Shown here: positions 160 to 5,929 of the stretch, in pieces
How positions within the stretch are numbered: position 1 is the first letter of the stretch
Layout of the letters: every line of letters starts with the position of its first letter
Program-made: the position numbers and the translations under genes
Assembly (NCBI GenBank): GCA_021834865.1
Contig: JAKBRD010000045.1
Span: forward strand, 1-5,929
DNA: 5,929 nucleotides
From: Microcaldota archaeon
GTDB lineage: Archaea; Micrarchaeota; Micrarchaeia; Micrarchaeales; Micrarchaeaceae
Direction of reading: 5' to 3'
Notes under the pieces: generated by a model
What the model saw: the letters and a program-made list of their open reading frames with translations, nothing else
The model's database searches: none
Told to the model about the DNA's origin: nothing

Positions 160-1626
160 ATGAGCGCAACACACGAGGTAATGGAATCATATCTGAAATC
201 TACTTCTATCTCACAGCAGCAGATAGACAGCTACAACAGGTTCATAACTACAGGCTTGAACAAGATAGTCGAGGCGCAGAGCCTCATAGAGCCTGACGTA
301 TCAAATTTCGCAATAAAGCTGGGCAGCATAAGGCTGGAGCAGCCCATAATAATAGAATCTGACAGCTCTACCAAGAGAATTCTTCCCAACGAAGCGTTGG
401 CAAGGAACCTTACATATGCGGCTCCTATGTACCTGACTTACGTGCCTGTGATAAGCGGCATAGAAAAGGCAGACGCCATGGGAGAGGCCTATGTGGGAGA
501 ACTTCCAGTAATGGTAAAAAGCAACTTATGCTACACAAAGAACATGACCGAGCAGCAGCTCGTCAAGGAGGGCGAGGACCCTGACGACCCAGGAGGCTAT
601 TTCATAATAAAGGGCACAGAGCGCGTTCTAGTAGGCATAGAGGACCTTGCGCCCAACAGGATGATAACTACAAAGGAGAAAGTAGGCATAGTTGTCAAGG
701 TTTTCTCAACAACTGTCAACTTCAGGGCCCGCTGCAGCATAACAAGGGACGACTACGGAATGTACACGGTTCTGTTCCCGACGCTGAACAAGGGAATAAG
801 CCTTTCGCTGATACTAAGGTCGCTTGGAATGGACCAGAAGTCCGTCCTGGCTCTTACCGAGGACAATTTTGCGCGCAACGACCTGATGCTGAACATGGAA
901 GTAGGAAAGAACTACATGGAGATGCAGCCGAAAGATGCCATAATAGAGCTCGGCAGGATAACTGCGCCAAACCAGGCCATGACCTACCAGGAGAAGAGGG
1001 CAGAGACGCAGCTGGACACATACATACTGCCGCATCTGGGAACGTCTCCGGAAGTCAGGAGGGAAAAAGCCGCTTATCTCATAAGGATGGCCGAGCGCAC
1101 CTCGATGGTGGCCAACGGCACCGTCAAGCCTGACGACAAAGACCATTATGCCAACAAGCGCGTCAAGCTCGCCGGAGACCTTTTGGAAGAGCTTTTCAAT
1201 ACCGCCTTCAAGGCGTTCATAAAGGACATAAAGTACCACGTCGAAAGGACTACGGCCAGGGGGCGCAGGCTTACGGTAAAGACCAATATAAACCCGGATA
1301 CGCTAACGGAAAAGATACTTTATTCCATGAGCACAGGCTCGTGGCCAGCAGGGCAAACGGGAGTATCGCAGGTTCTCGACAGGGTCAACTACATGAGCTC
1401 TGTGGCACACCTGCGCAGGGTAAAATCTCCTCTTGCCAAGAAGCACCCGCACCTGAAAGCGAGAGACGTACACGGCACGCACATAGGCAAGATATGCCCG
1501 AGCGAAACGCCTGAAGGAACAGAGGTAGGGTTGACTAGGTACCTTGCACTAATGTCAAAGGTTACGGTGGGAGCCGAACATTCGATGCTGGAGAAGAAGC
1601 TGAAGGAGCTAAAGCTCATAAAATAA
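160..1626 (+). CDS. rpoB2: DNA-directed RNA polymerase subunit B'' (N-terminal half of Rpb2/beta)
   Basis: 488 residues, close to the usual length of archaeal B''. It forms the protrusion, lobe and fork of the second-largest subunit and joins B' to complete it. Family motifs in order: LARNLTYAAPMYL near residues 80-92; GELPVMVKSNLC (113-124); GEDPDDPGGYFIIKGTER (138-155); EDLAPNR soon after; STGSW plus GVSQVLDR (391-408), the fork region equivalent to the bacterial rifampicin pocket; HLRRVKSPL (417-425); and CPSETPEG (446-453). The protein ends about 35 residues after ETPEG, where split archaeal B subunits normally break. The segment after ETPEG reads TEVGLTRYLAL; archaea usually have PNCGLVKNLAL. 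ATG 160 is chosen because it gives the full N-terminal helix. Its ribosome binding site is weak (GTGGT, 152-156). ATG 181 has GAGGT one base upstream, which is too close. Isoleucine is ATA in 31 of 33 codons by hand count. Confidence 0.97.
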   Translation: MSATHEVMESYLKSTSISQQQIDSYNRFITTGLNKIVEAQSLIEPDVSNFAIKLGSIRLEQPIIIESDSSTKRILPNEALARNLTYAAPMYLTYVPVISGIEKADAMGEAYVGELPVMVKSNLCYTKNMTEQQLVKEGEDPDDPGGYFIIKGTERVLVGIEDLAPNRMITTKEKVGIVVKVFSTTVNFRARCSITRDDYGMYTVLFPTLNKGISLSLILRSLGMDQKSVLALTEDNFARNDLMLNMEVGKNYMEMQPKDAIIELGRITAPNQAMTYQEKRAETQLDTYILPHLGTSPEVRREKAAYLIRMAERTSMVANGTVKPDDKDHYANKRVKLAGDLLEELFNTAFKAFIKDIKYHVERTTARGRRLTVKTNINPDTLTEKILYSMSTGSWPAGQTGVSQVLDRVNYMSSVAHLRRVKSPLAKKHPHLKARDVHGTHIGKICPSETPEGTEVGLTRYLALMSKVTVGAEHSMLEKKLKELKLIK

Positions 1627-1641: not shown

Positions 1642-3465
1642 TTGTCTGAAGAGAAATGCAGAGTATACCTCGATGGAAGAGAAATAGGCGCCGTGGCGAA
1701 CGGAAAGGAGTTCGCTGCAGAGATAAGGTCAAACAGGAGAAAGGGCCTGATATCCGGAGAGATAAACGTAGCCTACATTAAAAGCATAAACGAAGTCCAC
1801 ATAAATGCGGACAAGGGAAGGGTAAGGAAGCCGTACATAATCGTAGAAGACGGGCAGTCAAAGCTTACTCCTGACGTAATAGAGAAGCTAAAGGCCGGAG
1901 AAATAGACTTCAACTTCCTTGTAAGGAGGGGCATAATAGAATACCTGGATGCCGAAGAGGAAGAGAACATACTCGCAGCCGTTGATCCTTCGGAAATAAC
2001 AAAGAAAACGACCCATCTAGAAGTTGATCCTGCGTCATTCTTCGGGCTTACGGTAAACAACAGCGTATTCCCTGAATTCAACAGCATGGGAAGGCACCCG
2101 ATAGCATGGAACTTCATGAAGCAGGCCCAGGGCCTTTATACTACTAACTTCAACAGCAGGTATGATGCGAGGGCATTCCTGCTTTACTATCCGCAGGTTC
2201 CGATAGTCAACAGCGTTACGTACAGGACGCTAAACATGAAGAGGCACGCAAACGGGCAGAACTTCGTGGTTGCGCTTTCGACTTATTACGGCTACAACAT
2301 GCAGGACGCAGTAGTGCTCAACAAGGCCGCAGTCGACAGGGGCCTGGGAAGAAGCGTATTCTACAGGTCATACATGGACGAGGAGCGCAGATATCCTGGA
2401 GGCCAGCAGGACAGCTTCAAGCTGCCTCCGCCTACGATAGAAGGCTACAAGGGAGAGCACGCATATTCAAAGCTCGGAGAAGACGGCATAGTCGAGCCTG
2501 AGCTTGAGGTCAACGAGGGCGAAGTGATAATAGGAAAGGTATCGCCGCCAAGGTTCCTAGAGGAGCAGACTAGCTTCGGAGTCGGAGAAGAGCGCAGCAG
2601 GGACAATTCCGCAACGCTGCGTTCCGGGGAAACCGGAGCTGTAGACAGCGTTATGTTCAGCGAGACTACCGGCGCGACAAGGATAATAAAAGTAAGGATA
2701 AGAAGCATAAAGGTGCCGGAAGTAGGAGACAAGTTTGCAAGCAGGCAGAGCCAGAAGGGAGTGACTGCGCTTATAGTGCCGCAGGAAGACATGCCTTACA
2801 CCAAGGAAGGCATAGTCCCGGATTTGCTTCTCAACCCAATAGGATTGCCTAACAGGATGACTTACGGGCACATACTCGAGATGCTCGGAGCCAAGGCGGC
2901 ATCGCTTGACGGCAAAACTGTGGACGGGACTCCGTTCTCAAGGCACGGAAAAGAGGTCATAGACGATTATGCGGGAACACTTGAAAAGTACGGCTTCGAG
3001 AAGTTCGGAGACGAGGTTTTCTACGACGGAAGAACAGGCAAGAAGTTCTCGGCCCAGCTGTTCAACGGAGTTGTATACTACCACAGGCTGTGGCACATGG
3101 TGAGCTTAAAGCTTCAGGTCAGGAGCAGGGGCCCTGTGCAGATACTTACGAGGCAGCCTACGGAAGGAAAGCCAAGGAAGGGAGGCCTCAAGTTCGGAGA
3201 GATGGAACGCGACGCACTGGTCGGGCACGGCGCAAGCCTGCTCATAAAGGAGCGCATGCTGGACCAGAGCGACAAGGCTCCGGTATGGATATGCAAGACC
3301 TGCGGAGACATAGGATACTACGATTACATAAAGAACACTCCGGTTTGCCCGACGTGCGGAGGCAACAAATTGGAGGAGGTTGAGATAAGCTACGCATTCA
3401 AGCTGCTGCTGGACGAGCTCAAGTCCATGCACATACTGGCTAGGCTTAGGCTCAAGAGCGACTGA
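1642..3465 (+). CDS. rpoB1: DNA-directed RNA polymerase subunit B' (C-terminal half of Rpb2/beta)
   Basis: 607 residues, normal for B'. It carries the hybrid-binding region, wall and the C-terminal clamp segment. Motifs in order: VYLDGREIG (about 8-16); GRVRKPYIIVE; IEYLDAEEEEN (99-109); LYYPQVP; YGYNMQDA (216-223); EERRYPGG; GKVSPPRFLEE; VGDKFASRQSQKG (361-373); QEDMPYTKEGIVPDL; NRMT (404-407); WHMV (484-487); RSRGPVQILTRQPTEG; GGLKFGEMERD; a C-terminal zinc ribbon with ligands C551, C554, C569 and C572; and SYAFKLLLDELKSM at the end. TTG 1642 is the only plausible start: TAA 1624 closes the frame upstream, no ATG occurs until about residue 148, and GGTGAT precedes it. Lysines 364 and 372, R405 and H485, matching NTP-contacting residues in other polymerases, are kept. 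Near-invariant residues are changed: Glu of YNMED is Q221, HG of RHGQKG is Q369-S370, and DKIHAR is LKLQVR (489-494). Codon use matches the neighbours, so no sign of transfer. Confidence 0.97.
   Translation: MSEEKCRVYLDGREIGAVANGKEFAAEIRSNRRKGLISGEINVAYIKSINEVHINADKGRVRKPYIIVEDGQSKLTPDVIEKLKAGEIDFNFLVRRGIIEYLDAEEEENILAAVDPSEITKKTTHLEVDPASFFGLTVNNSVFPEFNSMGRHPIAWNFMKQAQGLYTTNFNSRYDARAFLLYYPQVPIVNSVTYRTLNMKRHANGQNFVVALSTYYGYNMQDAVVLNKAAVDRGLGRSVFYRSYMDEERRYPGGQQDSFKLPPPTIEGYKGEHAYSKLGEDGIVEPELEVNEGEVIIGKVSPPRFLEEQTSFGVGEERSRDNSATLRSGETGAVDSVMFSETTGATRIIKVRIRSIKVPEVGDKFASRQSQKGVTALIVPQEDMPYTKEGIVPDLLLNPIGLPNRMTYGHILEMLGAKAASLDGKTVDGTPFSRHGKEVIDDYAGTLEKYGFEKFGDEVFYDGRTGKKFSAQLFNGVVYYHRLWHMVSLKLQVRSRGPVQILTRQPTEGKPRKGGLKFGEMERDALVGHGASLLIKERMLDQSDKAPVWICKTCGDIGYYDYIKNTPVCPTCGGNKLEEVEISYAFKLLLDELKSMHILARLRLKSD
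2293..2310 (+). other. rpoB1: B' active-site motif YNMQDA (normally YNMEDA)
   Basis: This stretch encodes residues 218-223 of B'. The aspartate (D222) that corresponds to E. coli beta D814 and yeast Rpb2 D837 is present. The preceding acidic residue (E. coli beta E813, yeast E836) is Q221, codon CAG at 2302-2304. These acidic residues are known from the family to help place the NTP-bound metal. The codon was read directly and the flanking motif aligns without gaps. Confidence 0.85.
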
Positions 3466-3470
3466 GGTGT
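3464..3470 (+). promoter_or_regulatory. Ribosome binding site for rpoA1 overlapping the rpoB1 stop
   Basis: GAGGTGT begins inside the rpoB1 TGA (3463-3465) and ends four bases before ATG 3475, a normal archaeal Shine-Dalgarno arrangement. The overlap implies tight translational coupling of B' and A'. An in-frame GTG at 3469 is less likely to be the start because it falls inside this site. Confidence 0.75.
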
Positions 3471-3474
3471 GCAC

Positions 3475-5929
3475 ATGGTTCAGGCTGAAATAATAGACCA
3501 CATAAGGTTCACGGCGATAAGCCCTGACGAGATCAAAAGAATGAGCGTGGCTAAGCTCATAGTCCCAGATACGTACAACGAGGACGGATATCCTATAGAC
3601 GGAGGGCTTGTAGACCAGAGGCTGGGAGTCATAGACCCAGGGCTAAAGTGCAAGACCTGCGGAGGAAGGGCTAAGAGCTGCGTCGGCCACTTCGGCCACA
3701 TAGAGCTCGTGAGGCCTGTCGTGCACCCGGAGTTCTCAAAATCCATATACCTGCTGCTGCAGTCCACATGCGAGAGCTGCCACAGGATTCTCCTGGATGA
3801 AGAGCAGATAGCCGAGCTCAGGCCTGCTATAAAAAGCTTCATAAGCGTTGAAGAGGACGTCGTGGAAACGCTTCCGGAGACATCATCGCTTGCTACTCTT
3901 ACAAAGAAGCTTAAATCCGTAAAGAAGTGCCCGCACTGCGGCACTATGCAGCAGAAGCTCAAGTTCGAGAGGCCAACTTTCTTCTATCTAGGTCCAAACA
4001 AGATGAAGCCGGACGAGATAAGGGACTGGCTCTCAAACATAAGCAATGACGATCTGTCGCTGCTCGGAATAGACGGCGCTGCTACAAGGCCGGAATGGTT
4101 CATACTTACGGCATTGCTGGTTCCTCCAGTAAACGTCAGGCCTTCGATAACCCTGGAATCAGGAGAGAGGAGCGAGGACGACCTGACGCACAAGCTCGTG
4201 GAAGTCATGAGGATAAACCAGAGGCTCGAGCAGGACATAGATGCCGGAGCGCCTCAGATAATAATAGACGACCTGTGGGAGCTTTTGCAATACCACGTTA
4301 CTACATATTTCAACAACGAGACTCCTGGAGTTCCGGTGTCAAGGCACAGGAGCACCAGGCCTTTGAAGACGCTCGCGCAGAGGCTCAAGGGCAAGGAGGG
4401 AAGGCTTAGGTACAACCTTTCCGGAAAGAGGGTCAACTTCTCCGCTAGAACCGTAATATCTTCGGATGCAAGCCTCACGATAAACCAGGTAGGAATACCA
4501 ATGCGCATAGCGGAAAACATGACTGTGCCGTTCTACGTTACCAAATGGAACATAGAAAAGGGCAGGGAATTCCTCAAGAATCCGTCATATCCTACAGTAA
4601 TAAACGTCATAGGCAAGGACGGGCTGAGGAAGCGCGTCACTGAGACTAACAGGGAGGAGCTGCTCTCGGTACTCGAGCCAGGAGCCGTGCTTGAGCGCCA
4701 GCTGATAGACAACGACATAGTGCTATTCAACAGGCAGCCTACGCTTCACAGGGTATCGATAATGGCGCACAGGGTAAAAGTGCTCCCTGGAAAAACGATG
4801 CGCATGAACGTCTCGATAGCAATGCCTTACAACGCAGACTTTGACGGAGACGAAATGAACCTGCACGTTCCGCAGAGCATAGAGTCGCAGGCAGAGGCGA
4901 GATACCTCATGCAGCCAAAGAACATAGTGCTTGGCGCGAAGGACGGCAGGCCGATAGCATTCATAATAGAAGACGAAATAGCAGGTGCATACTTGCTCAC
5001 AAAGGACGACGCAATGTTCGACAAGCAGGAAGCAATGGTGATGATGTCGAACATAGGCATATACGAGCTGCCCGAGCCCCAGCGCAACGGCATGTACTCT
5101 GGCAAGAGCCTGTTCTCAATGCTGCTTCCAAAGAATTTCAGCTTCGAATACAGCAACAAGTCCAACAAGGTCGTGATAAAGAACGGCGAGCTGAAGTCGG
5201 GCATAATGGACAGCAAGCTCGTTGGCTCGGGCGCTGTGCTTATAGCAAAGCTTTTCGTGCACTACGGGCCAGAAGTCGTCGAGCAGTTCATACTGAAGCT
5301 TACGAAGCTCACGCTGCGCGTATCATACATGTACGGCCTTACGGTTGGAATAAAGGACTACTACAACTCCGAGAAGCAGATAAAGGAGAGGGAGGAAATA
5401 ATAAGCCAGACCAAGGAGAAGGCTTCTGAGCTTGCCGAAAGCTACAAGAAGAAAAAGCTCGAAGCGCTTCCGGGATATACGCGCAAGGAAACATTCGAAA
5501 TGCTGCTGCTTGCGCAGCTTGAAGAGGCCAGAACAAAGGCTGCAAAGCTCATATCGTCAACCACTGACGAAAGCAACGGCGCCTATATGCTTGCGACAGT
5601 AGGGGCACGTGGAAGCGTGCTTAACATGCTTATGATAAAGCTGCTGCTTGGTCAGCAGCAGGTAAGGGGCAAGCGCCTGTCCAGGGGCTATACCGGAAGG
5701 GTTCTTCCGTATTTCAAGAAGAACAGCAAGGATCCGGAATACAAGGGATTCGTTACAAACGGCTACCAGGACGGCCTCACTCCAATACAGATGTATATGC
5801 ACGCAATGGGTTCGAGGGACTCGTCAATGACAAAGTCGCTTGTAACTGCTGTCAGCGGATATCTCCAGCGCAGGTTCATAAACGCATTGCAGGACTTCTA
5901 TGTTGAGACAAACCTCAGCGTTAAAGACG
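3475..5929 (+). CDS. rpoA1: DNA-directed RNA polymerase subunit A' (N-terminal part of Rpb1/beta'), 3' truncated
   Basis: 818 codons are visible and the frame is still open at the edge. Archaeal A' is usually about 870-900 residues, so perhaps 50-80 are missing. It supplies most of the clamp, the Mg-A site and the bridge helix. Motifs: ISPDEIKRMSV (15-25); zinc site C59, C62, C69, H72 in a CVGHFGHIE context; second zinc site C99, C102, C152, C155; the clamp coiled coil around SEDDLTHKLVEVMRINQRL; KGKEGRLRYNLSGKRVNFSART (305-326, lid/rudder and switch region); FNRQPTLHR (418-426); NADFDGDEMN (453-462) with catalytic D455, D457 and D459; GARGSVLN (710-717) and GQQQVRGKR (726-734) in the funnel; YLQRRFINALQD (796-807) after the bridge helix. 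The bridge helix is very divergent: only G779, R781, T791, A792 and SGY (794-796) of the 18-residue consensus remain. ATG 3475 has a good upstream ribosome binding site, and the N terminus matches the family. rpoA2 is expected next. Confidence 0.97.
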   Translation, partial: MVQAEIIDHIRFTAISPDEIKRMSVAKLIVPDTYNEDGYPIDGGLVDQRLGVIDPGLKCKTCGGRAKSCVGHFGHIELVRPVVHPEFSKSIYLLLQSTCESCHRILLDEEQIAELRPAIKSFISVEEDVVETLPETSSLATLTKKLKSVKKCPHCGTMQQKLKFERPTFFYLGPNKMKPDEIRDWLSNISNDDLSLLGIDGAATRPEWFILTALLVPPVNVRPSITLESGERSEDDLTHKLVEVMRINQRLEQDIDAGAPQIIIDDLWELLQYHVTTYFNNETPGVPVSRHRSTRPLKTLAQRLKGKEGRLRYNLSGKRVNFSARTVISSDASLTINQVGIPMRIAENMTVPFYVTKWNIEKGREFLKNPSYPTVINVIGKDGLRKRVTETNREELLSVLEPGAVLERQLIDNDIVLFNRQPTLHRVSIMAHRVKVLPGKTMRMNVSIAMPYNADFDGDEMNLHVPQSIESQAEARYLMQPKNIVLGAKDGRPIAFIIEDEIAGAYLLTKDDAMFDKQEAMVMMSNIGIYELPEPQRNGMYSGKSLFSMLLPKNFSFEYSNKSNKVVIKNGELKSGIMDSKLVGSGAVLIAKLFVHYGPEVVEQFILKLTKLTLRVSYMYGLTVGIKDYYNSEKQIKEREEIISQTKEKASELAESYKKKKLEALPGYTRKETFEMLLLAQLEEARTKAAKLISSTTDESNGAYMLATVGARGSVLNMLMIKLLLGQQQVRGKRLSRGYTGRVLPYFKKNSKDPEYKGFVTNGYQDGLTPIQMYMHAMGSRDSSMTKSLVTAVSGYLQRRFINALQDFYVETNLSVKD
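4831..4860 (+). other. rpoA1: Catalytic Mg-A loop NADFDGDEMN of subunit A'
   Basis: This stretch encodes residues 453-462 of A'. The signature of multisubunit RNA polymerases is intact; D455, D457 and D459 hold the catalytic magnesium. Its integrity argues that the operon encodes an active polymerase even though other active-centre motifs have drifted. Confidence 0.97.
5809..5862 (+). other. rpoA1: Divergent bridge helix of subunit A'
   Basis: This stretch encodes residues 779-796. It aligns without gaps to the archaeal consensus GGREGLVDTAVRTAQSGY. Flanks are canonical (HAMG before, LQRRFINALQD after), so the register is secure. Eleven of the 18 positions differ: S780, D782, S783, S784, M785, T786, K787, S788, L789, V790 and V793. 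The TA pair next to the nucleotide-addition site and the SGY turn are kept. Confidence 0.85.

Follow-up and report, generated by a model that had tools for sequence, protein, structure and literature searches.

The window analysed here, a stretch of 5,929 nucleotides from a Microcaldota archaeon (contig JAKBRD010000045.1), carries the genes for the B'', B' and A' parts of an archaeal RNA polymerase, and the element in question is the bridge helix (BH) of A' (Rpo1N), which lies in frame with the rest of that subunit (Table 1). The A' product scored 1042 bits with NF006336 (archaeal RNA polymerase subunit A'; cut-off 819) and fell narrowly below the 1042.55 cut-off of TIGR02390, at 1017.5 bits for the truncated coding sequence of the window and 1041.5 bits for the gene of Candidatus Micrarchaeum sp. 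A_DKE. The A' of the latter, taken from its complete genome (NZ_CP060530), was 99% identical to that of the window, and five further records titled Micrarchaeota or Mancarchaeum showed 93–62% identity. Helix residues are numbered below as in A' of Methanocaldococcus jannaschii (mj), and data on other polymerases are quoted from the papers cited.

Compared with the Thermococcus counterpart GGREGLVDTAVRTAQSGY, taken from the 8cro alignment, 11 of the 18 BH residues of the window were different (G2S, E4D, G5S, L6S, V7M, D8T, T9K, A10S, V11L, R12V and Q15V). A previous reading made from the letters alone (the sequence-only reading) had counted 11 departures from the archaeal consensus, including the loss of GL, of the DTA triplet, of the Arg/Lys (now V790) and of a Gln (now V793), and the translation and alignment agreed with it, the numbering of V790 and V793 being consistent with a start at the ATG of position 3475. 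Its statement that the flanks align perfectly holds only for the lack of gaps, as the flanking residues themselves differ (QMYMHAM and LQRRFINALQDF in the window, QEYFFHAM and MQRRLINALQDL in Thermococcus). The canonical GL, DTA and Lys/Arg-before-TA elements were absent from the window helix and TA-x-S-GY was present; the retained residues of the region are T821, A822, S824, G825, Y826, R829 and R830.

Table 1. Genes of the window and active-centre features of the RNA polymerase that they encode
Feature	Positions	Strand	Remark
rpoB'' (Rpo2 N-terminal part)	160..1626	+	
rpoB' (Rpo2 C-terminal part)	1642..3465	+	
rpoA1 (A')	3469..5929	+	likely start ATG 3475; continues past window end; NF006336 match
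BH core of RNA polymerase A' (Rpo1N), GSRDSSMTKSLVTAVSGY	5809..5862	+	corresponds to mj A' 809-826
Ser replacing second N-hinge Gly (mj G810 / yeast Rpb1 G820)	5812..5814	+	
Thr replacing mj D816 / yeast D826	5830..5832	+	yeast role: salt-bridge partner of K830 (PMC5127505)
Lys at mj 817 / yeast T827	5833..5835	+	
Val replacing Arg/Lys (mj R820 / yeast K830)	5842..5844	+	
Val replacing mj Q823	5851..5853	+	
Catalytic NADFDGD motif of A', intact	4831..4851	+	
Fork loop 3 region of B'', KICPSETPEGTEVGLTRYLALM	1489..1554	+	Pyrococcus counterpart RICPTETPEGPNCGLVKNLALM
Backtrack-site segment of B'	2092..2121	+	Ile at 2101-2103 replaces gating Tyr (yeast Rpb2 Y769)
Metal-B motif GYNMQD of B'	2290..2307	+	Gln at 2302-2304 replaces Glu (yeast Rpb2 E836); Asp (D837) kept

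The order to which A_DKE belongs, called Micrarchaeales here, was represented by 164 genomes, of which 145 had an A' match and 111 were read over the BH. A draw from the same phylum comprised 196 genomes with 187 matches. Among the 187, 90 lay outside the order, and 65 of these were read; the first 43 of these loci were those scoring best against the window, hence a biased sample, and the 22 read afterwards yielded two loci beyond the order that lack R820. Three rows were dropped as duplicates (L007 and L037 of L004, and L008 of L001). Lys at position 817 was found in all 111 in-order loci, compared with 5 of the 65 outside. Conversely, Arg at position 820 was retained in 63 of the 65 outside loci and in none of the 111 within the order (L 49, V 46, I 10, M 3, and A, G and T one each), so that the residue there was non-polar (L, V, I, M or A) in 109 and Gly or Thr in the other two. 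Gly at position 810 was kept in 3 of the 111 (S 77, A 31), against 64 of the 65, and the position of D816 was occupied by Asn in 62 of the 65 outside loci. Within the order, G825 and Y826 were invariant (111/111 each), and S813 (108), L819 (104), T821 (103), A822 (91, with Pro in 4) and S824 (109) were shared by most of the 111 loci, while positions 814, 816 and 823 varied widely. Protein searches gave the same picture: among the best 120 of 8000 hits to the window A', which overlap partly with the in-order genomes counted, the 118 with a full BH all had K817 and none had R820, and R820 was retained in 118 of the best 120 of 7998 hits to an A' from outside the order. Because K817 is present in every in-order locus read, and R820 in none of them but in nearly all of those outside, we conclude that a new constrained motif is present rather than a mere loss of the old one. 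The order carries a rebuilt, constrained helix and not a degenerate one; the loss described by the sequence-only reading is real, but it is accompanied by an order-wide replacement, so that the interpretation given there is upheld in part. A scan of the viral_contigs set for other A' genes gave six loci, and a simple pattern search detected an ordinary helix in one of them (GGREGIIDTAIKTSESGY) and none in five.

An odd helix in one contig could stem from an error of sequencing or assembly, or from a divergent extra gene next to a normal rpoA1, and the sequence-only reading had reserved both possibilities. Nothing was found in favour of either, and neither fits the relatives. The 111 in-order loci, each from a different genome record, have K817 and lack the Arg; no canonical helix is seen in close relatives; and A_DKE, the genome of which is complete, has a single A' match, with a BH that is the same as that of the window and shows zero codon differences. 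For A_DKE itself a second copy is ruled out, the copy number being supplied by this complete genome, and we regard the artefact or second copy as having next to no probability. When the BH codons of the window were compared with those of seven other relatives, 7–11 synonymous and 0–2 non-synonymous differences were found. Since synonymous differences dominate, the altered helix is not a sequencing error and is under purifying selection.

The BH was one among several altered active-centre elements, although the sequence-only reading had singled it out. We scanned the subunits for switched sites, defined as conserved in at least 93% of rows outside the order and kept in at most 8% inside, using 43 outside and 91–92 in-order rows (40 and 56, respectively, for B''). 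By this definition A' had 14 switched sites among 306 conserved ones, A'' 8 among 97, B' 18 among 224 and B'' 13 among 96. The 18 BH residues held six of the 14 in A', the trigger loop held four of the eight in A'', and fork loop 3 held four of the 13 in B''; a further B'' site lay a short way upstream of that loop. The enrichment in the BH, a region named beforehand by the sequence-only reading, was tested with 16 conserved BH sites counted by hand (Fisher, 6/16 versus 8/290, p = 1.8e-5); this p value is only a guide, because sites switched on the same branch cannot be treated as independent. All 91 in-order rows had V, I, M or L at position 1080 of the trigger loop, where the 43 outside rows all had T or N; Thr was also found in Thermococcus and in 21 of the 22 added outside loci, which were the 21 where the loop was found. 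Intein-like insertions between QM and TMRTFH of the A'' trigger loop were seen in three Micrarchaeota loci outside the order.

The catalytic residues were intact in both groups: the three Asp of NADFDGD (92/92 in-order and 43/43 outside rows), the trigger-loop His (91/91 and 43/43) and the metal-B Asp (90/90 and 41/41). In contrast, of 131 rows of the phylum only four kept the metal-B Glu, each of them from outside the order, and the gating Tyr was present in none of 128, its place being taken mostly by M, I or L (Thermococcus has Tyr). As both are missing in nearly all rows of the phylum, they were probably lost before the order arose and earlier than the change of the BH. Yeast numbers within Rpb2 758–781 follow what we take to be the yeast sequence. 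The positions of N834, E836 and D837 counted from that sequence agree with PMC3533926.

The order consensus of the B' backtrack segment was about RHAMLANFIKQ. We presume this to be closer to the bacterial beta sequence than to the archaeal RNTYGAGMAKQ. For the transcript cleavage factor TFS, the zinc-ribbon profile PF01096 was above cut-off in 5 of 20 genomes and TFS_arch in none of 196, although 89 of the 196 gave weaker matches, many of them short; archaeal control genomes did match. TFS thus appears, by these profiles, to be divergent or undetected in the phylum. The A_DKE protein retains the Asp–Glu pair (GDEAP). The QxR motif, which we take to be usual for TFS, is absent from it.

Mutational data for the M. 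jannaschii enzyme bear on how much of this matters. The BH residues reported as most sensitive to mutation, T821, G825, Y826 and R829 (PMC2776397), are all present in the window, and Q817K and D816N are among the substitutions reported as superactive (PMC2988716); the Q817K made in the laboratory is thus the residue fixed in Micrarchaeales (PMC2776397, PMC2988716). The statement of the sequence-only reading that substitutions at the QS pair alter the rate also agrees with the data for Q823/S824 (PMC2776397). Non-Gly residues at G809 or G810 severely lower activity (PMC2988716); in Micrarchaeales K817 is combined with changes (G810, R820) reported as damaging when made singly. Part of what had been called universal does vary, although the canonical motif is truly absent: M. 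jannaschii itself has Gln (Q817), not Thr, in the DTA triplet (PMC2776397), and the second hinge Gly is Ala in Thermus thermophilus and Escherichia coli (PMC3533926), which, together with the Ala of 31 of the 111 in-order loci, weakens the claim of a hinge defect.

The changed positions 816, 817, 819 and 823 are tolerant or activating in M. jannaschii (PMC2776397, PMC2988716), as would be expected if the helix had drifted neutrally in a small-population symbiont, with selection relaxed at tolerant positions and no set mechanistic outcome. The wide variation of 814, 816 and 823 inside the order points the same way. However, drift does not readily explain the new near-invariant residues K817, S813 and L819, the non-polar residue kept at 820, the purifying selection seen at the codon level or the concentration of changes in contacting elements of three subunits, and we consider it unlikely, though by no means far-fetched.

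A tree was built with FastTree on A' minus the BH columns, with local SH-like (Shimodaira–Hasegawa-like) support. The 112 in-order rows, including the window, formed a single clade (support 100), and the loss of Arg in the order mapped to one change in the first tree; the change at T1080 of the trigger loop was likewise placed on one branch. P0152 and P0237 were put into the tree because they lack R820. With these outside exceptions, R820 changed at least four times, namely in the order, in L245/L248, in P0237 and in P0152, and K817 was present in all but the last, that is, in three of the four. L245 and L248 (genomes G161 and G064) are fused A'–A'' genes outside the order with the helix GGRDSVVDKGVNPAKTGY, in which Arg is lost, Lys stands at 817 and Pro replaces the catalytic Thr 821; their position adjoins the Thermococcus outgroup. 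A' and A'' also seem to be fused in seven in-order loci, in one frame of about 1190–1220 residues. Since Candidatus Micrarchaeum harzensis A_DKE is co-cultured at pH 2.0–2.5 (PMC8975820), adaptation to the environment, for example to acid, might be suspected, but habitat and descent are confounded because the loss of Arg in the order is a single change, and we hold this explanation to be very improbable.

We consider it reasonably probable that the window encodes an ordinary Candidatus Micrarchaeum A' the BH of which was rebuilt in the ancestor of the order and has been kept by purifying selection, with the coupling of the active centre re-tuned. The chemistry would be normal, the three catalytic Asp, the His of the trigger loop and the Asp of metal B being in place, and the re-tuning would lie in how bending of the helix and closure of the trigger loop are coupled to each other and to a frayed RNA 3' end. 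In yeast RNA polymerase II, K830 (the equivalent of R820) forms a salt bridge to D826 and contacts V1094 when the trigger loop is closed (PMC5127505); hydrophobic packing may have taken over from this salt-bridged Arg/Lys. The positive charge would have shifted to 817, a helical turn away and next to the place of the frayed 3' nucleotide. Molecular dynamics of the yeast enzyme couple T827 and Rpb2 Y769 to that nucleotide, with T831 as sensor (PMC4838855), and K817 would then stand at the edge of a site whose Tyr is gone and whose sensor Thr is mostly kept. In yeast, E836A and G820A both slow the enzyme and impair its fidelity, E836A severely so, and D837A is lethal (PMC3533926); the activating K817 may offset changes that slow other enzymes. 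The expected outcome would be an altered balance of rates, pausing, backtracking and fidelity, with activity retained. The residues make a phenotype in kinetics, pausing or fidelity plausible, and translocation or pausing may be unusual in the window enzyme, as the sequence-only reading had inferred.

Several observations weigh against this proposal of a rebuilt and re-tuned helix. The effects of mutations are transferred between backgrounds with uncertainty, because R820 of M. jannaschii is reported to tolerate Phe and Trp only (PMC8204694). On the tree, K817 and the change of G810 also arose elsewhere (three and five changes, respectively), and relocation of the charge from 820 to 817, treated as an association of K817 with R820, gave four independent pairs and was not significant. 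Neither coupling is strict, because L245 and L248 lack R820 and keep a canonical trigger loop, and P0152 lacks R820 and has no K817. Leu at the trigger-loop switch L1081 is found in Thermococcus as well, so that at this site it is the outside group that departs from the canonical form. AlphaFold gave pLDDT (predicted local distance difference test) values below 50 and no helix for residues 782–792 (BH 779–796) of the window A' modelled without partners and without a canonical control, and values below 50 for most of the BH in the fused A'–A'' of the in-order locus L035, again without a canonical control.

As to coevolution, Val at BH 820 and Val at trigger-loop 1080 gave eight independent pairs and no significant association, and this result and L245/L248 undercut strict BH–trigger-loop coevolution, which was rejected. 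Within the order, Arg or Lys at BH 823 was paired with a bulky residue at trigger-loop 1086 in 90 of 91 rows, a pattern that comes from just two independent pairs. A more far-reaching version of the re-tuning proposal is put forward only tentatively, as we think it clearly less likely to be right than wrong: Micrarchaeales may have stable alternative mechanics in which a Lys placed a turn earlier, together with hydrophobic trigger-loop packing, stands in for the near-universal Asp–Arg pair, operating without the gating Tyr and the metal-B Glu and with altered proofreading, and the route from K817 to the loss of R820 may have been repeated in the phylum.

The BH is regarded as nearly invariant across cellular life, and here 111 of 111 genomes read from one order share another constrained version of it. 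Tiny symbiotic archaea with a rebuilt helix thus offer a natural test of which polymerase parts are truly essential, in the manner of a double-mutant-cycle experiment that separates what is kept (G825, Y826, R829 and mostly T821) from what only seemed essential (D816, R820 and G810), and a tractable case for how helix–trigger-loop coupling sets pausing and fidelity. If the more far-reaching version is true, the order would have an alternative solution to the coupling of nucleotide addition, with proofreading altered. Our literature search, judged mostly on titles and the openings of abstracts and covering few subscription journals, found no paper reporting a bridge-helix change in Micrarchaeota. 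For the trigger loop of DPANN archaea, PMC7289017 is general and, in the passages inspected, does not contain this observation.

The closest known system is Nanoarchaeum equitans, the RNA polymerase of which diverges in the BH, trigger loop, fork loop 3 and metal-B site, with similar substitutions in Pace- and Woesearchaeota (Nottebaum and Weinzierl 2021, PMC8204694); the words 'Micrarchae' and 'DPANN' are absent from the text of that paper. We compared the two systems from its description, mapping the fork loop 3 columns by the spacing of the published residue numbers. Both are otherwise complete archaeal polymerases with concerted changes in these four elements, including metal-B Glu to Gln and, by this mapping, V458 and N460 in fork loop 3. 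Descent of a Nanoarchaeum-type active centre from an ancestor common to DPANN archaea would explain this likeness, and Pro at 822 in four of the 111 in-order loci falls, as judged from the numbering of the paper, in the proline column of N. equitans. However, 63 of the 65 Micrarchaeota loci read outside the order keep R820, the R808 region of N. equitans corresponds to mj R820, so that Arg seems to be kept there too, and fork loop 3 C445 and G452 are altered in N. equitans (PMC8204694) and unchanged in the window. Such shared ancestry is therefore improbable. The key BH change of N. equitans is a proline, P810, with Arg in the R820 region, whereas in Micrarchaeales Arg is lost and K817 fixed, and proline is rare in the helix (the window has A822). 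The N. equitans enzyme is active in vitro, where it needs fluoride (PMC8204694). With Rpo1N of Thermococcus, Pyrococcus, Sulfolobus and M. jannaschii, the window A' shares the subunit family, the catalytic motif, T821–A822, S824–G825–Y826 and R829–R830, and it differs from the canonical archaeal form in the BH residues listed above, with matching trigger-loop and fork-loop residues altered. Concerted divergence of the active centre is thus already known in other DPANN archaea, and Micrarchaeales, in which divergence of the kind seen in Nanoarchaeota occurs in another form, represent a different BH solution.

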